From positions 1-33,651 of IMG/VR virus record IMGVR_UViG_3300025889_000485: 33,651 nucleotides of DNA, one strand, 5' to 3'. Below are positions 3,006 through 32,046 of the stretch, piece by piece. The notes under the pieces were generated by a model. It saw nothing but the letters and a program-made list of their open reading frames with translations, ran no database searches and was not told the DNA's origin. How positions within the stretch are numbered: position 1 is the stretch's first letter; each line of letters opens with the position of its first letter. The position numbers were made by a program, and so were the translations under genes. The DNA is from a virus.

Positions 3006-3452
3006 ATGCAGATTAGCCAGCAGGGCGTAGAGCTAATTAAGCACTTTGAGGGATGCAGGCTGGAGGCTTACCTCTGTCCTGCTGGGATCTGGACCATAGG
3101 GTATGGGCATACCCTTGATGTTAAAGAGGGCGACCGTGTTGACAAAGAAGCAGCTGAAGCGTTTCTTATTGAGGATCTGGAAGAGTTTGAAGACCACGTT
3201 CAAAGGTTGGTGGAAGTGGATCTCAACCAAGATCAATTCGACGCGCTTGTATCATGGGTCTTCAACCTTGGCTATGGAAATCTGGCGGCATCGACACTCC
3301 TGGCGAAACTGAACGACGGGCTGTACGACGAAGTACCGGAACAAATCAAGCGGTGGACGCGCGCTGGTGGCCGCGTTCTTGATGGGCTGGTAAAGCGTCG
3401 TAACGCTGAAGCCCTTCTCTGGGAAGGCAAAGACTGGCGAGAGGCCGTCTAG
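3006..3452 (+). CDS. Endolysin: T4-type lysozyme (glycoside hydrolase family 24)
   Basis: 148 residues, the usual length for phage lysozymes of this type. It cuts the glycan strands of peptidoglycan at the end of infection. The catalytic signature E-8aa-(D/C)-5aa-T is complete: Glu15 in HFEG, Cys24 in YLCPAG and Thr30 in WTIGYGH. Cys in the middle position is a known natural variant, as in P21-like lysozymes. There is no signal peptide or signal-arrest-release segment, so export should depend on a holin. The ATG at 3006 removes a spurious upstream extension into the preceding gene. Confidence 0.95.
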   Translation: MQISQQGVELIKHFEGCRLEAYLCPAGIWTIGYGHTLDVKEGDRVDKEAAEAFLIEDLEEFEDHVQRLVEVDLNQDQFDALVSWVFNLGYGNLAASTLLAKLNDGLYDEVPEQIKRWTRAGGRVLDGLVKRRNAEALLWEGKDWREAV

Positions 3453-3453
3453 G

Positions 3454-3666
3454 GTGGAGCGCACGGAGATGCAGGGAATACAAGACAACGCACATCGAGT
3501 TGCAGACAACTTAGCTGCTACCTCCGTGCTGGGGGCCATCACGGCCAACCTGCCTATTATCACAGAGTGGATGCAAATGATCGCAGCCCTTATTGGTATC
3601 TGCTCTGGTTTGGCAGCGCTCAGGTTCTACCTAATACGTACCTCGAAACTAGGCGGGGAGGAGTAA
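3454..3666 (+). CDS. Putative holin (class II-like small membrane protein)
   Basis: 70 residues with two hydrophobic segments (about 22-37 and 40-58) separated by a short TEW turn and ending in a charged tail (RTSKLGGEE). This is the size and layout of two-span holins, and the gene directly follows the lysozyme. The GTG at 3454 has AGAGG at a proper distance; an internal ATG at 3469 has GGAG touching it and is less likely. With the 3TM protein upstream the window holds two holin candidates, so one may be a holin and the other an antiholin. Confidence 0.7.
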   Translation: MERTEMQGIQDNAHRVADNLAATSVLGAITANLPIITEWMQMIAALIGICSGLAALRFYLIRTSKLGGEE

Positions 3667-3669
3667 CAC

Positions 3670-6600
3670 ATGGGTGGTTTTAACCTTAACTTCAGCCTTC
3701 CCGGCTTAGGTATAGACGCCAAAAAGATCCAAGAGGCGCTGGCTTCCTACAGCGCTCGGAATGCGGCTACGGGAGTGCCCTCCGCGCGAGACTTCGCCCC
3801 GGTTGTTCCTGGGGCAGGCACTGCTTACGTGCCTCCTGCGCCCGCTCCTACCCCTACCAGTTATACTGGGCAAGCTGCTATGGATCTTACCGGCGATCCC
3901 GACATGGACCGCATGATCCTTGACGCTAGAGCAGCGCAGGATAACCAAAGAAACTACACAGCCACGCAAGAGATGATTGCTTCTGGGGTGCTGCCCTCAG
4001 ATTTTGTATACGGAATGCCAGGCGGAAAGCCTGGGTTTCTTGAAATTGGAATTAACTCTGAAGGTGTTAAAGGTCCAAATTATCAAGTTATTCCTTACAA
4101 TACTCCGCAAGAATATTTAGATGCGTACAACTTAAAACTACAAACCGAGTCCCCTAGAGAGTCTTGGACAGACCAAAGAAGCAGCTTTGGAAAGTTTGTA
4201 GACGAAACACTAGGTGGGCCGGGAGGGCTGTTCGGTCTGACCGTGGGTGCCCTTACGGGTGGCCTTGGCTACGCGGGGATGCTTGGCTCCGCGGGGGCGG
4301 GAGCAGCAGCAGGGGCAGGTACCGCTGCTATCACTGGTGGTGATCCGCTTCGAGCAGGACTAGCAGGCGGCGCAGGGGGTATCCTTGGGGCTGGCGCTAA
4401 CGCCGCCCTTAGCGGTCCCACGCAAGCAGCCGCAGCAACGGGGACGACTACCCCCGCAGCACAGGCAGCGGCAGCACAGGCTGCCCCAGCGGCAGCTACT
4501 ACTACGGCTACCACGACCCCCGCTATCCAAGCCGCGGCAGCAGCACCGAGCGCGGCAGCGGGCGGTGGAAGCGCTATCAACATTGCAGCAGGTACGGGTC
4601 TTGCGAGTCCGGCTGCGGGAAGCATCAATCTGGCCGCTACGGGACTGCCTGCCTTTACGGGCGCCGCAACTACCGGAGCGGGCACGGCAGCAACAGGGCT
4701 CGGTACGCTGGGGGCAGCTAGTGCAGCCCCGGCTTTGGGCGGGGTGCTTGGAGGCACAAGCCCTGCGGCAGGCGCGATTAACATCGCTGCGGGTACGGGA
4801 GCAGCAAGCCCCGCGGCGGGGGCAATCAATCTCGGTGCAGCGGGCCTTGGGGCCGCAGCCCCGGCTGTAAGCACGGCAGCACCACTTACGATGGGCGGAC
4901 TCCTTGGCGGAGTTAGTCCGGCAGCAGGCAGCATTAATCTAGGAGCAGCGGGACTGGGAGCTGCTGGAGGAGCAAGTATGGGTGGGATTAGTGGCTTTCT
5001 TAGCGGAGCTGGTAACTTCTTAAACCAGGCAGGCAACTTTATTGCCAGCCCTGGGGGGCAGCTTCTTTCTGGGCTGGGCCAAGCGGGTCTTGGCTACCTA
5101 GGCCAGCAAGAGCAGATGGAAATGGCTCAGCAGCTTGCCGAGCAAGCCCGTTTCCGGCCCTACAACATCCAAGGGCCCCTCGGGGCTGTGGACATTACCG
5201 GCCAGGACATCAGCATCTCTCCGACTGCTCAGCAGCAACAGCTCCAACAGGGGTTGTTTGGTGCGGCACAGCAGCAGCTAGGGGTAGCCGGGGCTCCCGC
5301 CCTTGCGGGCATCGTAAGCCGGGCTCCGGGGCAGGTAGAAAGCCTTGCTCAGCAGTTTATCCGCCAGCAAACCACCACCCCGGCAGCAGCCCGAGCCCTT
5401 GCTTCTCAGCTTGGGGGCCTTGGACGACAAGCTACGCAGTTTGGTGCGCAAGGCATCCAGCAGGCGTTTCGCGCTCCCAGCGCACAAACAGCGGCAGCAC
5501 AAGCTCTCCGTAGCCAACAAGGGCGAGCAGAAGCAGCGCAACTCCAGGGCCTCGCAGGAGGTCTCGGAGCCATGGGCGGGCAAGCCCTTTCCCAAGCATT
5601 CCGCGCTCCGGATGCGCTAAGCGCGATTAGCGGGCAGTTAGGCGTAGGCGGGTATCAAGGCCTTCCTTCTTCCGTAGGCATGGCCTCGCCTTTCTTGGGG
5701 CAAGCTCCCCAGGCTGGGATGCTGTCCGCACGCGGTGCCGTTGGCGGCCTCCTTGGAGGGGCCGCGCCCGGTGTGGCAGGCATGGGCGCGGGTGCTTTGG
5801 GCGGAGCCCTTGCGCGTAGCCGAGAGGAAGGACTGGTAAGCCAAGCTGCAGGCGCAGGGCTGGGGCTGTTAGCAGAGGGTGCAGCAGGTGCCCGTGGCCT
5901 TGCAGGGGAGATTGCAGGGGCTGGCGGAGAGCTACTCCGCGGCGCCCAGGCACCGTCCTTCAATCAACTTGCAGCAGAGCGTCTAGCCGCACTACGCGGC
6001 CAAGCACGGACGGGTGAGGAGCGGGCTACCCAGTCCGCCATCGAGCGTTTGTTCAGCCAGGGCCGTCTAGGGACGACGGGGGGACAGCGCGCTCTTGGAG
6101 AGCTGGCGCGGGCCCAGGAAGAGGCAGACATTGCACGTACGGTGGCTGCACAAGACTTTGCCCAGCAACAGCAGAACATCGCTGCACAGCAGGCGCTGCA
6201 ACGGCAGCAGCTTGGGGCAGGTTTGCTAGGCACGGGGCTTGCAGGACAGCAGTTCCTTGCCCAGCAGGGCCAAGGCTTGCTTGGGATGGGTGCGCAGGTT
6301 GGTCAGTTTGGCCGTACCCTTGGCGCAGACATCGGGCAGTTTGGTGTGGGGCTCGGAGAGCAGGCACGGCAGGCGGATATTGCCAATATCCTTGCCGCCA
6401 CAGGCCAAGACGTATCCCAGCTTCAGTTTGGTGCTACCCTTGGGGAGCAACAGCGCGCACAGAACCTGCAAACACTGCTTGCAGCACAGGCCCAAGATAT
6501 TGGGCAACGGCAGTTCGGCACGAGCTTTGCAGAGCAGCAGCGCCAGGCAAACATCGAGGCCTTGCTTGCGGCCACTGGCCAGCAGCAGGCTCAGGCTCAG

Positions 6601-7101
6601 TTCCTTGGGGGCCTTGGGGAGCGTTTGGCGGGGCAGCAGCTCGGTGCCCAGCAATTCCTTACGCAGCAAGCGCAAGCGCAGCGGCAAGCAGACATCGCCG
6701 CCCAGCTGCAAGCTGTGGAAGCAGATCAGCTACGCGCTGCACGACTGGGACAGCTTGGACAAGGGCTCTTCGGCCTGGGGGCCGAGATCCCAGCAACGGT
6801 GTTCGAGGCGCAGCGTCTGGCAGACCAGGCATCTCTCAGCCGCGGGGCACAGCGGGTTGCGGCAGCCGAGGGGCTGTTCGGATTCGGGCAGCAAGCCCAG
6901 CAGCAAGCACTTCAGCAGGCTACGATGGCAGCAGGGGCTCAGGCAGATCTGTACAGCCCGCTTATCCAGCTTGCGAATATCGCATCGGGTATGGGCGGTG
7001 CCCAAGCTACCGCAGCAGCGCGGGGCGCAGGGCTACAGTACGACGCCTTCGGGTCGCCCTACACGGCGGCAGGATCGTTCTTCGGAGGCCTTCTGGGCTA
7101 A
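3670..7101 (+). CDS. Large Ala/Gln/Gly-rich protein, probable virion or ejection protein
   Basis: 1143 residues with very biased composition. Residues 1-180 are ordinary and partly AT-rich at DNA level. Residues ~180-440 are Ala/Gly/Thr-rich, glycine-zipper-like, with repeats of the type INIAAGTG and SPAAGSINL. From ~480 to 1143 the protein is Gln/Ala/Leu-rich with many ELARAQEEADIA-like helical units. It follows the lysis genes and precedes two more large genes in the place where podoviruses carry internal virion proteins that form the DNA-ejection channel. No catalytic motif was found. The function is therefore inferred only from size, composition and position. GGAGGAG lies just before the ATG. 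Confidence 0.85.
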   Translation: MGGFNLNFSLPGLGIDAKKIQEALASYSARNAATGVPSARDFAPVVPGAGTAYVPPAPAPTPTSYTGQAAMDLTGDPDMDRMILDARAAQDNQRNYTATQEMIASGVLPSDFVYGMPGGKPGFLEIGINSEGVKGPNYQVIPYNTPQEYLDAYNLKLQTESPRESWTDQRSSFGKFVDETLGGPGGLFGLTVGALTGGLGYAGMLGSAGAGAAAGAGTAAITGGDPLRAGLAGGAGGILGAGANAALSGPTQAAAATGTTTPAAQAAAAQAAPAAATTTATTTPAIQAAAAAPSAAAGGGSAINIAAGTGLASPAAGSINLAATGLPAFTGAATTGAGTAATGLGTLGAASAAPALGGVLGGTSPAAGAINIAAGTGAASPAAGAINLGAAGLGAAAPAVSTAAPLTMGGLLGGVSPAAGSINLGAAGLGAAGGASMGGISGFLSGAGNFLNQAGNFIASPGGQLLSGLGQAGLGYLGQQEQMEMAQQLAEQARFRPYNIQGPLGAVDITGQDISISPTAQQQQLQQGLFGAAQQQLGVAGAPALAGIVSRAPGQVESLAQQFIRQQTTTPAAARALASQLGGLGRQATQFGAQGIQQAFRAPSAQTAAAQALRSQQGRAEAAQLQGLAGGLGAMGGQALSQAFRAPDALSAISGQLGVGGYQGLPSSVGMASPFLGQAPQAGMLSARGAVGGLLGGAAPGVAGMGAGALGGALARSREEGLVSQAAGAGLGLLAEGAAGARGLAGEIAGAGGELLRGAQAPSFNQLAAERLAALRGQARTGEERATQSAIERLFSQGRLGTTGGQRALGELARAQEEADIARTVAAQDFAQQQQNIAAQQALQRQQLGAGLLGTGLAGQQFLAQQGQGLLGMGAQVGQFGRTLGADIGQFGVGLGEQARQADIANILAATGQDVSQLQFGATLGEQQRAQNLQTLLAAQAQDIGQRQFGTSFAEQQRQANIEALLAATGQQQAQAQFLGGLGERLAGQQLGAQQFLTQQAQAQRQADIAAQLQAVEADQLRAARLGQLGQGLFGLGAEIPATVFEAQRLADQASLSRGAQRVAAAEGLFGFGQQAQQQALQQATMAAGAQADLYSPLIQLANIASGMGGAQATAAARGAGLQYDAFGSPYTAAGSFFGGLLG
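4561..4968 (+). repeat. Imperfect coding repeats in the 1143-aa protein
   Basis: Three units at roughly 4570-4645, 4741-4850 and 4900-4968 encode variants of (L)GG-SPAAG-INIAAGTG-ASPAAG-INLGAAGLGAA. Units 1 and 2 carry both halves, while unit 3 carries only the SPAAGSINLGAAGLGAA half. The units are diverged at DNA level, so they are old or selected at protein level. Confidence 0.7.
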
Positions 7102-20208: not shown

Positions 20209-21135
20209 CTACATTACTGCTTTGATGAACTGCGTTGCGACTTGCGGGACGATGGCATTGCCGTAGGCGCGCAGTCGTCCCACTCGGGCGGGAACCCCAT
20301 GAGCCAGCGGCTCAATGCTGGGTTCAATGCGCCTCGCTTTTCCGTCGGCGCAGGGGATGTAAATAGCGCTTCCCTGAGCTGTCCACGGCGCTGTTCCAGC
20401 TTGTGGGCTCCCTTCCAATCCGACGCTTGTGGCGTCGCCCAGCCCGCTGCTGCTTCTTGGAGACTTGCGCCCCGTTTCCCGTCGTTCTCCCGGCTGCCCC
20501 GTCGATCCGATGTTGTCGGAGTCGGCCAACCTACTGCCAGAACTGCTTTTACTCTTAGGCTCCCCTGTGTTCCCGCATGGCGAGTTGTCAGCTCCCACTC
20601 TGTCGCTGGACCGTGCTTGCTGTCCTGAACCCTTGGAGTCGGCCACCCACCATAGCCGTTGCCGGATGTGCGGCGCGCCGACGCTCGCAGCGCACAGATC
20701 GGCTCCCCCGACTGCATAGGCCAGTGTTTCCAGGTCAGCGCGTACTCCGGCGAACCACTCTCGGCCAAGGCGGCTCGCAACTTGCTCTCCAAAGACGACT
20801 GAAGGCTGGCACTGGCGGATAAGCTCGTAGAACACGGGCCACAGGTGTCGCTCGTCGCTTGTGCCTCGCTGTTTTCCTGCTGCGCTGAAGGGCTGACAGG
20901 GGCAGCTTCCTGTCCACATTGGGCGGTCGTCGTCCCACCCAGCCAATCGAGCTGCGTAGGACCATCCGCCGATTCCGGCAAAGAAGTGGCACTGGGTAAA
21001 CCCTTTAAGATCTTCCGCTTCGACATCCTCAATGCTCCGCTCGTCAACCTCGCCAGGGGCGATATGCCCTGCCTTGATAAGGTTACGCAGCCACTGGGCA
21101 GCATAGGGGTCAATCTCATTGTAGTAGGCTGTCAT
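20209..21135 (-). CDS. DNA cytosine-C5 methyltransferase
   Basis: 308 residues. Motif I FFAGIGG (51-57) binds S-adenosylmethionine, and motif [16 protein letters not shown] (78-91) carries the catalytic Cys80. Motif VI is GEQV (116-119) where ENV is usual, keeping the catalytic Glu. Motif VIII is RQRLWW (158-163) and motif X is [12 protein letters not shown] near the C-terminus. A ~100-residue variable part (about 165-265) with repeated ADS-type motifs is the target-recognition region. It probably protects phage DNA from host restriction; the target sequence cannot be read. GGGGGAA precedes the ATG, which overlaps the sigma-like gene stop. A long second frame lies inside. Confidence 0.93.
20214..21026 (-). 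CDS. Possible overprinted gene inside the methyltransferase (alternative frame)
   Basis: A second frame on the same strand stays open for about 300 codons inside the methyltransferase gene (20214-21119). The ATG at 21026 has GGAG 8 nt upstream, giving 270 aa starting [19 protein letters not shown]. It contains three spaced GW(P/A)TP...(S/Q)D units and ends [21 protein letters not shown] recognise this ending and the [22 protein letters not shown] region from proteins annotated in other phages, also linked to C5 methyltransferases. It may be a real dual-coding gene or a by-product of conserved methyltransferase codons. Confidence 0.35.
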
Positions 21136-21626
21136 AAATTCCCCCGTATCGCCTCAACTGCCTTGTTCCGAATCCGCTGCACTGACCTTACGCTCATTCC
21201 CAGCTCGTCTGCAACCTCAGCCTGCGTATACCCAAATAGGTATAGCCAGCTCAGCACTTCCCGCTCCTCCTCCGTCAGTCCCGCCTCGTCCATGGACACC
21301 AGCAGCTTTGCCATCTGCTCCTCGTGCCACCGCTCGTCCGTTGCGCGGTCTGCAACGTAGAGCTCCTCCGTGTCCACCTGCGGATCAAACAGCTCCAACC
21401 TTTCGCGCTCGCGCTTGTGGTAGCGCAGCAAAGCCCAGACGATGCGCTGGCGCACAAAGCTCTTTAAACTCATACCGCGCTCCGGGTCCCACTTGCGCCC
21501 CTCCTCCACTAGGGCCAGTAACGCCTCGCTGACGTAGCCGTCGGGGTCGGAAACCCCGCGGCGACGGGCGAAGCCCTCAGCTACGCGGATCGCGTAGGGG
21601 GTCAGATCCTCAACCTTTGGGTGCAT
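21132..21626 (-). CDS. Sigma-70 family RNA polymerase sigma-like factor
   Basis: 164 residues with two conserved parts of sigma factors. Region 2-like: EALLALVEEGRKWDPERG...FVRQRIVWALLRYHKR (about 34-72). Region 4-like helix-turn-helix: LTEEEREVLSWLYLFGYTQ...DELGMSVRSVQRIRNKA (about 117-158). The linker is acidic, and regions 1 and 3 are missing, as in minimal ECF-like sigmas. It would bind host core RNA polymerase and direct it to phage promoters. It overlaps a 59-aa gene at its start and the methyltransferase at its end. A non-sigma HTH regulator of the same ancestry is the alternative. Confidence 0.8.
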   Translation of the reverse strand: MHPKVEDLTPYAIRVAEGFARRRGVSDPDGYVSEALLALVEEGRKWDPERGMSLKSFVRQRIVWALLRYHKRERERLELFDPQVDTEELYVADRATDERWHEEQMAKLLVSMDEAGLTEEEREVLSWLYLFGYTQAEVADELGMSVRSVQRIRNKAVEAIRGNL

Positions 21627-26731: not shown

Positions 26732-26756
26732 CCCGCCCCTCCCAAGAGGGAGCGGG
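26732..26756. repeat. GC-rich stem-loop
   Basis: CCCGCCCCTC (26732-26741) pairs with GAGGG-A-GCGGG (26746-26756) with one bulged A and a 4-nt CCAA loop. No T-run follows. Possible RNA processing or pausing site in the leader of the rightward operon. Confidence 0.35.
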
Positions 26757-26802
26757 CATGCTTACGTCGGAGCCGTAGCCCCAAGCGAAGGCTAACGACG
26801 TG

Positions 26803-26843
26803 ACAAGAATACTCCTCAGCTCAAGCCTTCGTCGTATTCTTGT
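26803..26843 (+). promoter_or_regulatory. 10-bp inverted repeat in the leader of the packaging operon
   Basis: ACAAGAATAC (26803-26812) and GTATTCTTGT (26834-26843) are perfectly complementary around 21 nt, which itself contains GCCTTCG complementary to CGAAGGC at 26786-26792. Two exclusive hairpins are therefore possible, a classic attenuator-like layout. GTATACA motifs follow at 26842 and 26899, close to the first gene. Confidence 0.4.
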
Positions 26844-26908
26844 ATACATCAGCAGCTTACGCTGCGCCCTATCCCGAAGGGATGGGCAAACCACTTAGGT
26901 ATACACGC

Positions 26909-27142
26909 ATGTTAAGCATTGATGGAAAGCAGTACACCGAAGAAGATCTGACTCCTGAGCAGATCGCTGAGGTGAATCACATGGTCGCGCTCCAGCAAGA
27001 GCTGGGGGCGCTCCAGCGTCGCTTTACAGACGTACAGATTGCGCTGTCCACTCGCCAGGAAGCCTTCGTGGCAGCGATCAAGGAAGTGTCAGAGGACGAG
27101 CCTGAGCTTGTCGAGGGTGAGGCCGAGGCGGAAGTCGCGTAA
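26909..27142 (+). CDS. DUF6447-like small protein, first gene of the packaging operon
   Basis: 77 residues. MLSIDGKQYTEEDLTPEQIA, then a coiled-coil-like VALQQELGALQRRFTDVQIA and an acidic tail (EDEPELVEGEAEAEVA). The MLTIDGKEY-type opening with ELTPEQ is typical of a small phage family (DUF6447, from memory) placed near terminase genes. The ATG at 26909 matches that opening; an in-frame ATG 27 nt upstream is possible. Ribosome binding site is weak (TTAGGT). It ends on the start of the next gene. Confidence 0.75.
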   Translation: MLSIDGKQYTEEDLTPEQIAEVNHMVALQQELGALQRRFTDVQIALSTRQEAFVAAIKEVSEDEPELVEGEAEAEVA

Positions 27143-27396
27143 TGGCGACCCCGCGGAAGGGTAAGGCTAAGGTCAAGGTGACCGCCAGCGGGCGGAAGGT
27201 GTCCTACGGCCAAGCCGGTAAAGCGAAGGACGGAGGGCCGCGTGTACGTCCAGGGACCGCGAAGGGTGATGCCTATTGCGCCCGTAGCGCGGGCCAGATG
27301 CGTGACAACCCGAAAGCAGCCAAAGACCCCAACTCCCCGCTCCGCCTCTCGCGGAAGCGGTGGAAGTGCAGCGGAACCAAGAGCCGGAGATCCTGA
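27142..27396 (+). CDS. DUF6321-like basic protein
   Basis: 84 residues, strongly basic. The core KDGGPRVRPGTAKGDAYCAR, then LSRKRWKCSGTKS matches a phage family (DUF6321, from memory) with two conserved cysteines and the TAKGDxYCARS motif. Its role is unknown, but its place before small terminase and its charge suggest DNA or virion association. Overlaps both neighbours by 1 nt. Confidence 0.8.
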   Translation: MATPRKGKAKVKVTASGRKVSYGQAGKAKDGGPRVRPGTAKGDAYCARSAGQMRDNPKAAKDPNSPLRLSRKRWKCSGTKSRRS

Positions 27397-27572
27397 TGCC
27401 CAGAGGACTGTACGCCAACATCAACGCCAAGCGTAAGCGCATCGCAGCCGGTTCAGGCGAGCAGATGCGCACCCCGGGCTCTAAGGGTGCTCCCACGGAC
27501 AAAGCCTTCAAGGAGTCTGCCAAGACGGCCAAGAAGAAGCGGGGAGGGTCCCGCACCCGCCGCCGCGGGTAG
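27396..27572 (+). CDS. Small basic protein, 58 aa
   Basis: MPRGLYANINAKRKRIAAGS, then GSKGAPTDKAFKESAKTAKK and an Arg-rich end. I recognise the MPRG(L/V)YANINAKRKRIAAGS opening from phage genomes, always small and basic, beside the DUF6321-like gene. Start and previous stop overlap (TGATG). Likely DNA-binding; role unknown. Confidence 0.75.
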   Translation: MPRGLYANINAKRKRIAAGSGEQMRTPGSKGAPTDKAFKESAKTAKKKRGGSRTRRRG

Positions 27573-27577
27573 CGGGT

Positions 27578-28183
27578 ATGACCTACGACTACATGCCCGA
27601 GCACCCTGTTATCAGTGGCAACCGTACCGTAATCTGGTGCCCCATCGGGCGAGAGGTCATAGCAGCAACACCGAAGGTAGGTTCTAACAGCGTACGCAAG
27701 GCAGCCAACGGCGGCCAGGTACCAAAGCACAAGGTAGAGCACTACAACGAAGCGGTAGTATTTGTCCGAGATCCGCTGGAGCGGATGGAAAGCTCCTTTC
27801 ACTACTTCAACAACCGCGCGTCGTGGCCCCAGGTGTGGCACGAGCGCACCCAGAGCTACATCTCCAGCCCCCCGCGGGACTGGATGGACTTTGTAGACCT
27901 AGTGTTGGACAAGCGGTACTGGGACAAGCACTGGGTTCCCCAGAATTGGCTCTGGGGACCCCTTCCGACGTTGTATTTCATGTTTGAAGACATCGAACAG
28001 GTATTCAAAGAACGCTACGGGCTACGCATCGGGCACCACAACAAGGGCCCGCTGAACATGGAACCGATGGCCCGCAGCTACCGAGAGCCGGAATTAGAGG
28101 ATTTCTTCAAAGATGACTTCAACCTCAGAGCAAATATCAAAGAATTCGACCGAAAACTCGGATTCAGCGTCCCAAGAGACTAG
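27578..28183 (+). CDS. Sulfotransferase-like protein (carbohydrate sulfotransferase family)
   Basis: 201 residues. TPKVGSNSVRK at 31-41 matches the 5'-phosphosulfate-binding loop of PAPS-dependent sulfotransferases (usual form PKxGSTS). VVFVRDPLERMESSF at 60-74 matches the 3'-phosphate-binding strand and helix (FVRDPxxRxxSxY/F). Both cofactor-binding parts are thus present. The protein is shorter than most family members (250-350 aa). It would move sulfate from PAPS to a hydroxyl group, perhaps on a cell-surface or virion glycan. It lies between basic packaging-region genes and small terminase, overlapping the latter by 71 nt. Weak ribosome binding site. Confidence 0.75.
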   Translation: MTYDYMPEHPVISGNRTVIWCPIGREVIAATPKVGSNSVRKAANGGQVPKHKVEHYNEAVVFVRDPLERMESSFHYFNNRASWPQVWHERTQSYISSPPRDWMDFVDLVLDKRYWDKHWVPQNWLWGPLPTLYFMFEDIEQVFKERYGLRIGHHNKGPLNMEPMARSYREPELEDFFKDDFNLRANIKEFDRKLGFSVPRD

Positions 28184-28556
28184 CTTAGTCAGGGACAATT
28201 CGACCGGACGCTTCCTGAAAGGCGTCAGCGGTAACCCAAACGGACGCCCGAAGGGCTCAAAGAACAAGGTTACCATGCTCAAACTGATGGTCGAGGAGGC
28301 CGTCAGGGAAGATAACGCAGACAAAATGCTCCAAGTGGCAAATCTGATTGTAAATCAAGCACTTGAGGGCGACAAAGACAGCCAAAAGCTGGTTTGGGCG
28401 TCGATCATGTCCAAAAGCGCAGCGGATAACACCGTTGCGGGCAAGGAAAGCGTCCAAATTAACATTTCCACCACCGACTCTGCCTCTAAAAAGGCGGAAA
28501 TCATCGAAGTAGACGACGAGGATATTGAAGATGGCGAACATGAACCAGTGCAGTGA
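28113..28556 (+). CDS. terS: Putative small terminase subunit (DUF5681-like N-terminus)
   Basis: 147 residues. GRFLKGVSGNPNGRPKGSKN (about 32-51) is the DUF5681 signature, a DNA-binding-type module common in phages. A helical oligomerisation-like region follows (about 55-110), then an acidic tail (EVDDEDIEDGEHEPVQ). Size, N-terminal DNA-binding motif, acidic tail and place before the large terminase support TerS, which selects the DNA to be packaged. The function is inferred from position. It starts inside the sulfotransferase-like gene and is overlapped by the next small gene. Confidence 0.7.
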   Translation: MTSTSEQISKNSTENSDSASQETSLVRDNSTGRFLKGVSGNPNGRPKGSKNKVTMLKLMVEEAVREDNADKMLQVANLIVNQALEGDKDSQKLVWASIMSKSAADNTVAGKESVQINISTTDSASKKAEIIEVDDEDIEDGEHEPVQ

Positions 28557-28686
28557 CTACGCCCAGAAGGGTCCCGGCGTGAAATCCAAGTCCAGCATGG
28601 GCTCCAAGCCCTACAAGGCTGGCGCAGGCATGAAAAGCCCCGTCAAGGGCGGTGCTATGGGCGGTTCCAAGCCCCAGGGCTACTAA
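28531..28686 (+). CDS. Small Gly/Lys/Ser-rich protein, 51 aa
   Basis: MANMNQCSDYAQKGPGVKSK, then SSMGSKPYKAGAGMKSPVKG and GAMGGSKPQGY. Low-complexity and basic with regular Lys-Gly-Met spacing. GAGG lies 8 nt before the ATG, and the frame differs from the TerS frame it overlaps. Similar tiny basic proteins accompany terminase genes in other phages. Possibly a virion DNA-compaction peptide; this is inference. Confidence 0.6.
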   Translation: MANMNQCSDYAQKGPGVKSKSSMGSKPYKAGAGMKSPVKGGAMGGSKPQGY

Positions 28687-28697
28687 GGTGGCCTACG

Positions 28698-28820
28698 GTG
28701 CCGGTAAGAAAGGTAAAAAGCGGATGGCAAGTCGAAGGAACACGAGCCGTCCACAGAACCCGAGCCGCCGCCGAAAGGCAGCTTCGCGCTATTAAAGCGT
28801 CGCAAGCCAAAAAACGCTAG
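28698..28820 (+). CDS. Small basic protein, 40 aa
   Basis: GTG start with AAGGTGG 6 nt upstream. MPVRKVKSGWQVEGTRAVHR, then TRAAAERQLRAIKASQAKKR. The pattern M-P-V-(R/K)-x-V-K-x-G-(W/Y), then A-E-x-Q-x-x-A-I-x-A-S is a very common tiny protein before the large terminase in phages. It ends at the base of the hairpin holding the terminase ribosome binding site. Confidence 0.7.
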   Translation: MPVRKVKSGWQVEGTRAVHRTRAAAERQLRAIKASQAKKR

Positions 28821-28838: not shown

Positions 28839-30116
28839 TTGAATATCAGTCTTCACAAGCACCAGCTTGATATTTTTGAAGACCCCAGCCGCTTTAAGGT
28901 CGTTGCGGCTGGCCGTCGTTTCGGGAAATCGTATCTTGCAGCCGTGACATTATTCGTAGAAGCGGCGAAGAACTCCAAGGTGCGAAGCGACGGGGTAGAA
29001 GTAGACCTTGCGCTAGAAGAAGTGTACTACGTCGCGCCGACGTACGAGCAGGGGAAGAAGATCCTTTGGCCGCTCCTGAAGGAGCTTGGATCTGAACTCA
29101 TAGCTCAGAAATACGAGAACCAGGGCGTGCTCACGCTAGTCAACGGTCGCCGCATCTCTATCAAGGGTGCAGACCGCCCCGACAGCCTGCGTGGGGTTGG
29201 CCTTAGTTACGTAGTCATGGACGAGTACGCTTTTATGAAGGAAGAGGTGTGGCAGATGATTATCCGCCCCGCCTTGGCTCGGGCCGAAGGGGGAGCGCTG
29301 TTTATCGGCACCCCCGACGGCAAGAACCACTTCTACGAGTTGTGGGCCCACGCCATGCAGACGGAAGACGACGCATGGAAAGCGTGGACCTACAAGTCGA
29401 TGGACAACCCGTTCCTGCCCGCGCAGGAAATCACGATGATGGCCGAGAATATGTCGGAGGAGCGTTTCCGGCAGGAGATTGAGGCATCGTTCGAGTCGGG
29501 AGGCGGTATTGTCCTTACCCGCGATATGTTTGACATCGTGGAGAGTGTCCCCTACCCGGGGGATTATTACGTAGCAATCGACCTCGCCGGTTTCAGCAAA
29601 ACCGAGGGAGGGCGCAAGGTGAAGAAGCTCGACGATCACGCCATCGCAGTAATCCTTAATCATGCTGGCGGATGGTGTGTTGCCGATCTTATTTACGGTC
29701 AGTGGGATGTTAGAGAGACCGCACTTCGGATAGTAAAGGCGTATCGGGACTACAAGCCCGTGAAGCTAGGCGTTGAGAAGGGCATGGCAAAGAACGCCGT
29801 TACCCCCTACATCGAGGACGAGATGAATCGCCTGGGGGTGTACTTTCCGATCTGGGAATTGTCGCACGGGAATCAGCGAAAGACAGACCGTATCGCCTGG
29901 GCCCTTCAAGGCCGGGCGGAAAAGGGTCGCATAAGTCTGCTGAAGGCCCCGTGGAACAAAGACTTCCTGGACCAGTGTGTAGACTTTCCGTCCCCTTTAT
30001 CTCACGACGACCTCATTGATGCAGTGTCGTACGTGGATCAGATGGCAGACCCATGGTTCGACGGCTTTGATGTCGAAGACGAGTGGGAGCCAATGGACGA
30101 TGTTGCAGGCTATTAA
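28839..30116 (+). CDS. terL: Terminase large subunit (packaging ATPase and nuclease)
   Basis: 425 residues from a TTG with GGAGGG 9 nt upstream. ATPase: Walker A AAGRRFGKS (23-31), Walker B YVVMDEYAF (124-132) with catalytic Glu129, and coupling motif IGTPDG (156-161). Nuclease: Asp248 in VAIDLAG, Glu313 in LGVEKG, and Asp390/391/394 in SHDDLIDA, the three acidic sites of the RNase H-like fold. It cuts and pumps DNA into the prohead through the portal. The C-terminal tail is acidic (FDVEDEWEPMDD). Confidence 0.95.
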   Translation: MNISLHKHQLDIFEDPSRFKVVAAGRRFGKSYLAAVTLFVEAAKNSKVRSDGVEVDLALEEVYYVAPTYEQGKKILWPLLKELGSELIAQKYENQGVLTLVNGRRISIKGADRPDSLRGVGLSYVVMDEYAFMKEEVWQMIIRPALARAEGGALFIGTPDGKNHFYELWAHAMQTEDDAWKAWTYKSMDNPFLPAQEITMMAENMSEERFRQEIEASFESGGGIVLTRDMFDIVESVPYPGDYYVAIDLAGFSKTEGGRKVKKLDDHAIAVILNHAGGWCVADLIYGQWDVRETALRIVKAYRDYKPVKLGVEKGMAKNAVTPYIEDEMNRLGVYFPIWELSHGNQRKTDRIAWALQGRAEKGRISLLKAPWNKDFLDQCVDFPSPLSHDDLIDAVSYVDQMADPWFDGFDVEDEWEPMDDVAGY

Positions 30117-30129
30117 GGGGAGCTAAAGC

Positions 30130-32046
30130 GTGGCGATACAAAACCAATTCGGGGATACCAATAACCCGAACGACGCGCGCCAAGAATACGAAGGCTTCTC
30201 TGGCCTTGCAGAGTTTATTCTGCTGAAGGTGGATCACGCACGGGACGTGCGCGACACCAAGTACGGTACTCGCTGGGACGAGTACACCCGCCTGTGGCGG
30301 GGGTTCTTCACGGAGAAGGACAAGAATACGGACAGCGAGCGCAGCCGCCTTATCGCTCCTGCGCTGTCCCAGGCTATTGAGATGACGGTCAGCGAGATTG
30401 AGGAAGCTATCTTCTCTCGCAAGGCGTGGTTTGACATCACGGATGACATCCGCGATGAAAGCAAAGAAGACGCAGTGATCTACCGTAACCAGCTCCTTGA
30501 GGACTTTAACCTTGACGGGGTTCAGCGGTCTATCAGTGACGCCATCTTGATGGGCGCTATCTATGGCACGGGGATCGCCAAGATCAACGTGGCTAAAAAG
30601 ACCGAGCTTCAGGCAGGCCCGACGGGGGATACCACGGAAGTGGAGCGTATTTCCGTTCCCGTGGAGGCAGTGCGTCCTGACCAATTTGTTATTGACCCCG
30701 CGGCAACGAACATCGACGAAGCGATGTTTGTGGCCCACGAGGTTATCAAGCCGATGCACACCATCCGGGAGAAGCAGCGGCAGAAGATCTATCGTAAAGG
30801 CGAGTTGTCGCCCTACACGGGCACCCGTCCCGATACGGACGGCACGGGCATCACGGCTAACGTGGACCTGCGGGATAGCTCCGTCAAGCTAGTTGAGTAC
30901 GCGGGCAAGGTGCCTGCGGTGCTCCTACCTGACGCAAAGGGCAGCGGTATGGTCGAGGCCCTTGTGACCCTTACGGAAGACGGTTTTGTATTACGTGCGG
31001 TAGAGAATCCTTACCGCATGAAGGACCGGCCCTACGTCGCGTATCAACACGACAGCGTGCCGGGAGAGTTTTGGGGCCGAGGCGTAGCTGAGAAAGGCTA
31101 TAACCCTCAGAAGGCCCTTGATGCAGAGCTGCGGGCTCGTATCGACGCCCTGGCTTTGATGTCTGCCCCGATGATGGGGGCGGACGTATCACGGCTACCG
31201 CGCAACGCAGACTTCCGGGTACGTCCCGGCAAGACGGTGTTTACCCGCGGTCGTCCTAGCGAGATCCTGGAGCCGCTACAGTTCGGTAATCCCTCGATCC
31301 TTGCTAACACCTTCCAGCACACGGGTGATCTGGAGCGGATGATCCAAATGGGAACCGGGGCGATGGACTCGGCAACCCCCGTTGGTGTCAATGCGCGAAA
31401 CAGCACCGCCAGTGGCATCAGTCAGCTACAAGCTGGCTTCATCAAGCGCTCCAAGCGCACGATGCAAAACATTGAGCGCCAGTTCCTTGGACCGCTGGTC
31501 CGTAAGAGCCTTTGGCGCTACATGCAGTACGACCCTGAGCGTTATCCGGTGGATATGAAGTTCCGTATCGACTCCGCCATGGGGATCATGGCTAAGGAAG
31601 TCGAGAATACGAACCTGACCAACATGCTTGGTTATATTCCGCCCAACTCTCCTGCTCACATGCTGGTTGTACGTGCCATCTTTGAGAACAGCTCCTCCGC
31701 TAACAAGGAAGAGCTGATGAACGCAATTCGTCAGCTATCTCAGGGCCCGAGCCCCGAGCAGCAGCAAATGCAACAACAGATGCAAGAGCTGCAACAGCGG
31801 ATGTTGATGCTTGAAATGCAAGCGAAAGAGCTTGAGAACGCCAAGGCGCAAGCAGAAATCGCCAAGCTACAAGCAGAGACTCAATACACGCTGACGAAGG
31901 ACGATCTGGAAGACGATAAGGTCCAGATTAATGCGTCAAACGCGGCTGTAGCAGCGCAGAAAGTGCGCGTGCAGTCGCAGGTGGCAGATACCCAGCGGCA
32001 GGAGGCACTAGCCCGTGCAATCGGACAACGACAAGGTAGTAGCTGA
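30130..32046 (+). CDS. Portal protein (head-tail connector)
   Basis: 638 residues from a GTG with AAGGGGAG upstream. The N-terminal helical wing (EFILLKVDHARDVRDTKYGT...TRLWRGFFTEKDKN), the FVIDP-type stem (RPDQFVIDPAATNIDEA), and the crown-like C-terminal Gln/Glu-rich coiled coil (about 535-620) match large portal proteins, nearest in style to the P22 portal family. A ring of twelve copies forms the DNA entry channel and binds terminase. GRGVAEKGYNPQKALDAELRA begins the clip-like part near residue 317. Directly downstream of terL, as expected. Confidence 0.88.
   Translation: MAIQNQFGDTNNPNDARQEYEGFSGLAEFILLKVDHARDVRDTKYGTRWDEYTRLWRGFFTEKDKNTDSERSRLIAPALSQAIEMTVSEIEEAIFSRKAWFDITDDIRDESKEDAVIYRNQLLEDFNLDGVQRSISDAILMGAIYGTGIAKINVAKKTELQAGPTGDTTEVERISVPVEAVRPDQFVIDPAATNIDEAMFVAHEVIKPMHTIREKQRQKIYRKGELSPYTGTRPDTDGTGITANVDLRDSSVKLVEYAGKVPAVLLPDAKGSGMVEALVTLTEDGFVLRAVENPYRMKDRPYVAYQHDSVPGEFWGRGVAEKGYNPQKALDAELRARIDALALMSAPMMGADVSRLPRNADFRVRPGKTVFTRGRPSEILEPLQFGNPSILANTFQHTGDLERMIQMGTGAMDSATPVGVNARNSTASGISQLQAGFIKRSKRTMQNIERQFLGPLVRKSLWRYMQYDPERYPVDMKFRIDSAMGIMAKEVENTNLTNMLGYIPPNSPAHMLVVRAIFENSSSANKEELMNAIRQLSQGPSPEQQQMQQQMQELQQRMLMLEMQAKELENAKAQAEIAKLQAETQYTLTKDDLEDDKVQINASNAAVAAQKVRVQSQVADTQRQEALARAIGQRQGSS

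Follow-up and report, generated by a model that had tools for sequence, protein, structure and literature searches.

A predicted PAPS-type sulfotransferase gene is carried as variable cargo beside the terminase genes of a podovirus-like phage

Introduction

Sulfotransferases have been reported in aquatic phages (PMC10580990, PMC10829341, PMC12285232), and one survey states that the role of these enzymes in phages is unclear (PMC10580990). Phage sulfotransferases of phrog_3347 and Pfam family PF03567 are proteins of about 190–230 amino acids (AA) that share the signatures FVR[DN]P-x2-R-x2-S and H-x2-P-Q as well as a PK-loop. The PAPS loop and the 3'-phosphate motif are also present in animal enzymes, namely the heparan sulfate 2-O- and 6-O-sulfotransferases and the SULT enzymes (PDB 4ndz, 5t03, 1cjm). 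An arrangement in which a sulfotransferase gene lies beside terminase was not found described in the literature that we searched.

Here, we analyse a sulfotransferase-like gene in a 33.65-kb IMG/VR virus record (the window), which is possibly a fragment. Its product resembles the phage enzymes in length and in all three signatures, but differs from the phrog_3347 phage sulfotransferases in sharing only 15–24% identity with them, in giving no match to the phrog_3347 profile ('Galactose-3-O-sulfotransferase') at E-values up to 10, and in its surroundings, with no glycan-synthesis or PAPS-synthesis gene among the window genes scanned. Profile and fold matches likewise connect it to the heparan sulfate and SULT enzymes, although these are longer and the E-values are weak (0.004 by profile and at least 0.06 by fold).

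The original prediction held that no phage was known to carry a sulfotransferase gene beside its terminase genes, and this did not withstand comparison. In Roseobacter phage SIO1, to which we were led by a fold search, gp5.1 (4688–5254, minus strand; 188 AA) carries VPKTATIAI and LIRNPHDWIKSYY, follows the tail-fibre genes and lies directly upstream of a TerL-like gene. Encoded in a marine podovirus, gp5.1 is like the window protein a lone sulfotransferase-like protein with a TerL-like gene downstream; it differs in being unannotated and in its weak family match (phrog_3347, E 0.033). It was found in Siovirus records only, and tblastn with the window protein did not recover it. Close to the left end of the SIO1 record, terminase-like coding sequence is present on the plus (441–1521) as well as the minus strand (3161–4222), which may be an assembly artefact of the reference record. 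A second precedent is provided by IMG/VR contig 3300030329_005844 (L203), where TerL overlaps by 1 bp with a Pfam-confirmed sulfotransferase gene that is followed by a second, overlapping one (3598–6915). This contig shares with the window a sulfotransferase gene adjoining a terminase gene, but the gene is downstream of TerL, the phage belongs to a different lineage and the Pfam match is much stronger (E 1e-13). In a further contig (L200), TerL lies 1.8 kb from the sulfotransferase gene. Both the enzyme family and the terminase-adjacent position thus have phage precedents, and the position is not unique.

Results and discussion

The window is organized into a leftward block of replication genes, which encode a PolA-type polymerase, a 5'–3' exonuclease, a DnaB-like helicase, a T7-type endonuclease I, a sigma-70-like factor and a DNA methyltransferase-like protein, and a rightward block that starts near 26840 with small open reading frames (ORFs) and continues through TerL and portal. 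The phage-encoded sigma-70-like factor (21135–21626, minus strand), located within the replication block, has regions 2 and 4. The rightward block, all on the plus strand, opens with an ORF of 100 AA (26840–27142), followed by two small basic ORFs of 84 AA (27142–27396; conserved in the related contigs L004–L008) and 70 AA (27360–27572; phrog_16028). The fourth ORF is the sulfotransferase gene (27578–28183; 201 AA, ATG start), of the Sulfotransfer_2 or carbohydrate sulfotransferase type. Downstream are a DUF5681 protein of 147 AA (28113–28556; PF18932, E 8e-13), which by position is probably the small terminase subunit, two small basic ORFs of 53 AA (28525–28686) and 40 AA (28698–28820), the large terminase subunit TerL (28839–30116; Pfam Terminase_6N, E 3.9e-15; phrog_2, E 9.6e-42) and the portal protein (30130–32046; Pfam SU10_portal, E 8e-23; phrog_1216, E 6e-50). 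The portal is distantly related (about 22–29% identity) to those of HMO-2011-like and other mostly marine podoviruses. The ORF, its two PAPS motifs and its neighbours were accordingly as originally described.

The 3' end of the sulfotransferase gene overlaps the 5' end of the DUF5681 gene by 71 bp (28113–28183, plus strand), and because a similar overlap is found in the related contigs L003 and L004, co-transcription and translational coupling of the two genes are likely. No clear promoter was found. Copies that are identical or 83% identical occur in L002, L003 and L004, which are contigs of three other metagenome records; with the gene at the same place in all of these, an assembly chimera is unlikely.

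Assignment to the PAPS-type sulfotransferase family, which we consider very likely, is supported by several comparisons. The only Pfam family found on the protein was PF03567 Sulfotransfer_2 (E 8.5e-5; residues 50–125), at 23.2 bits just above the curated cut-off of 22 bits. PHROG and NCBIfam family searches returned no match, and phmmer of the single protein against the PDB gave chance matches only. When a profile of three distinct copies of the protein was aligned by hhalign with one built from 15 bacterial Sulfotransfer_2 proteins, residues 60–130 matched with a score of 51.3 (P about 1e-7), whereas the maximum among 40 column-shuffled controls was 17.9, and the match is therefore beyond chance. 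The PKVGSNS loop was paired with the bacterial PK-loop in another alignment mode.

Three sequence elements are shared with other sulfotransferases. The 5'-PAPS phosphosulfate-binding loop TPKVGSNSV (27668–27694, plus strand; residues 31–39) aligns with the same loop, PK[VTSA]..., in 15 bacterial and 39 other viral sulfotransferases. The 3'-phosphate-binding motif FVRDPLERMESSF (27761–27799, plus strand; residues 62–74) contains R64 and S72 (R-x7-S) in register with the bacterial enzymes. The H-x2-P-Q signature, HWVPQ (27929–27943, plus strand; residues 118–122), is common to seven bacterial sulfotransferases (L119, L120, L124, L125, L136, L147 and L157) and to every viral one recruited. Recruitment used a strict DNA pattern for FVR[DN]P-x2-R-x2-S...H-x2-P-Q, which recovered the window gene, several bacterial enzymes and 64 viral-contig stretches, the window's own relatives included. 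A separate pattern match in L026 lies inside a portal-like gene and is due to chance. Nine residues (F62, V63, R64, P66, R69, S72, H118, P121 and Q122) are invariant in an alignment of 42 viral sulfotransferases, partly by construction, since the recruiting pattern contains them. The PK-loop, N155, Y168 and D180 lie outside the pattern and are nevertheless common to most viral members. As to the catalytic base, neither His51 nor His55 is retained in the L003 and L004 proteins. No convincing cellular relative emerged from scans of genome contigs for close relatives or from profile searches that covered 399 genomes of one phylum and 292 of another; three weak matches (E 7e-4 to 0.008) contained internal stop codons.

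The structure prediction and fold search proposed with the original prediction were carried out and gave mostly sulfotransferases. An AlphaFold model built with the 42 viral sequences was of medium confidence (pLDDT 67, pTM 0.64), compared with a pLDDT of 32 when just three near-identical sequences were supplied; the alignment itself consisted of sulfotransferases, so the model does not test the family assignment independently. Foldseek matches of the model were nearly all sulfotransferases. In the PDB they were led by SULT1A3, heparan sulfate 6-O- and 3-O-sulfotransferases and other sulfotransferases, none with an E-value below 0.001, and in the viral BFVD they were mostly annotated sulfotransferases (best E 9.7e-4).

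Shortness of the protein had been singled out as a notable feature, yet most of the viral sulfotransferases found here span 190–230 AA and the window protein, at 201 AA, falls among them. A truncated sulfotransferase is ruled out by this typical length and by the retention of the C-terminal N155, Y168 and D180 columns. Measured from start to start, the two PAPS motifs are 30 residues apart, the shortest spacing seen, compared with mostly 32–60 in other viral sulfotransferases, which places the protein at the compact end of a continuum. Together with the strong divergence of the protein, the missing PHROG match and the medium confidence of the model, this spacing could suggest a sulfotransferase fold that is no longer catalytic and now serves some other purpose, e.g. 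nucleotide binding. We find this unlikely: the PAPS-contact residues K33, R64 and S72 of both motifs are retained, and outside the DUF5681 overlap the window and L003 copies differ with a dN/dS of 0.10 (dN 0.037, dS 0.36), which indicates purifying selection for protein function. Judged from these residues, the window enzyme is likely to have retained catalysis.

Comparison with close relatives demonstrates that the gene is cargo (a moron) in a hypervariable slot heading the rightward block. Blastn homology between the window and L005–L007 ends at 27541 and resumes at 28194, so that about 50 bp in these contigs replaces the 652 bp of the slot (27542–28193, plus strand), the left edge of which is marked by the 70-AA ORF. 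The three contigs are without the sulfotransferase gene despite TerL and portal proteins that are 98–99% and about 95–96% identical to those of the window, respectively, and in L008 the slot is occupied by two other small basic ORFs instead. The empty site and the replacement rule out a core packaging gene, and the absence from close relatives of the same synteny argues for accessory cargo. The proposed location inside a packaging operon holds to the extent that the gene belongs to a compact series of same-strand genes closing with TerL. The gene is missing from some relatives of the same synteny but not from all, being kept in L003 and L004. An additional cargo gene of 198 AA without a Pfam or PHROG match precedes the sulfotransferase gene in the slot of L004 (1048–1641). 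L009 starts at the slot edge, which may reflect an assembly break at the polymorphism.

The empty site also bears on the possibility that the enzyme sulfates a component of the virion, such as a tail-fibre or capsid protein (on tyrosine or an attached glycan), and is for that reason produced late with the structural genes. The position of the gene in the rightward structural block, where it overlaps the TerS-like gene upstream of TerL and portal, would fit such a function, as would the comparable settings in SIO1, where tail-fibre and TerL genes are the neighbours, and in L203, where TerL adjoins. However, since relatives with near-identical TerL and portal proteins dispense with the gene, it cannot be required by any conserved protein of the head or the packaging machinery, and the family is mostly carbohydrate-directed; we therefore regard modification of the virion as improbable. 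Its broader form, in which the enzyme would act on the virion or the assembling particle (the tail fibre or a packaging-associated protein) and sulfation would be part of late assembly in several unrelated terminase-adjacent lineages, appears very unlikely.

Among more distant relatives fetched by TerL (44–61% identity), none was found to carry the sulfotransferase gene. More than 1.5 kb upstream of TerL is available in 71 TerL-fetched loci, a count that includes the window and its close relatives, and 61 upstream proteins scanned from these loci include C5 and N4/N6 methylases, ArdA, lysozymes, peptidases and polyvalent-protein domains. The methylases and ArdA raise the question of whether the enzyme instead adds sulfate to nucleic acid, to nucleotides or to some small metabolite and so takes part in anti-restriction or base modification, and a passage in PMC10829341 cites Iyer et al. 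(2013) for sulfotransferase-based nucleotide modification in phages. Against this, the family match is of the carbohydrate type, and in the window a DNA methyltransferase-like gene was recognized but no base-hypermodification gene. As the slot of distant relatives also holds lysins, membership in it does not fix function, and we give a nucleic acid or metabolite target little credence.

We propose, with about even confidence, that the gene is accessory cargo of a podovirus-like phage and specifies a compact PAPS-dependent sulfotransferase, which would add sulfate to a surface glycan of the host at a late stage of infection, with PAPS supplied by the host. Judging from its position, the gene would be co-transcribed with the packaging genes and its product made late. 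The enzyme would draw PAPS from the sulfate-assimilation pathway of the host and attach the sulfate to a hydroxyl on a surface polysaccharide made by the host, or on the lipid-linked precursor of that polysaccharide. The added negative charge might alter the receptor, so that progeny would not be trapped on the debris of lysed cells and rival phages would adsorb less. The glycan target is drawn from family analogy, since the window protein does not match phrog_3347 and the window genes scanned hold no glycan- or PAPS-synthesis gene; its main support comes from the neighbourhoods of viral sulfotransferases, in which glycosyltransferases, epimerases, aminotransferases and APS kinases are encoded. 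In addition, 36 of the 42 viral relatives match phrog_3347.

Tail-fibre proteins with an S74 domain often read surface glycans. At its left end, the window encodes a tail-fibre-like protein with a C-terminal S74 intramolecular chaperone (14–1567), and by way of this established link between fibres and glycans we count the protein as a possible argument in favour of a glycan target.

With the claimed novelty of its position gone, the gene remains a genuine accessory gene, though a fairly ordinary one. Its value lies in comparison: near-identical phages with and without it constitute a clean natural experiment, and such a pair could directly reveal what sulfation does for a phage. Recovery of dozens of contigs with one strict signature indicates that phage sulfotransferases are common in viral metagenomes, and in this podovirus lineage the slot before TerS offers a compact place in which to seek genes for host interaction and anti-defence.

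As a separate observation, many of the indels that distinguish the window from its close relatives consist of a tiny hairpin or include one, e.g. GCAGC-TTAC-GCTGC, CTCAC-TAAC-GTGAG and GGCT-GCAA-AGCC. The window holds 190 perfect hairpins with a 5-bp stem compared with 113 (maximum 133) in 20 shuffles, which ignore codon constraints. Hairpin indels occur in intergenic as well as coding DNA (window 26733–26891, 28510 and 30117; L003, 246–908; L010), and the sulfotransferases of L003 and L004 have a 20-residue in-frame insertion that holds two of them.
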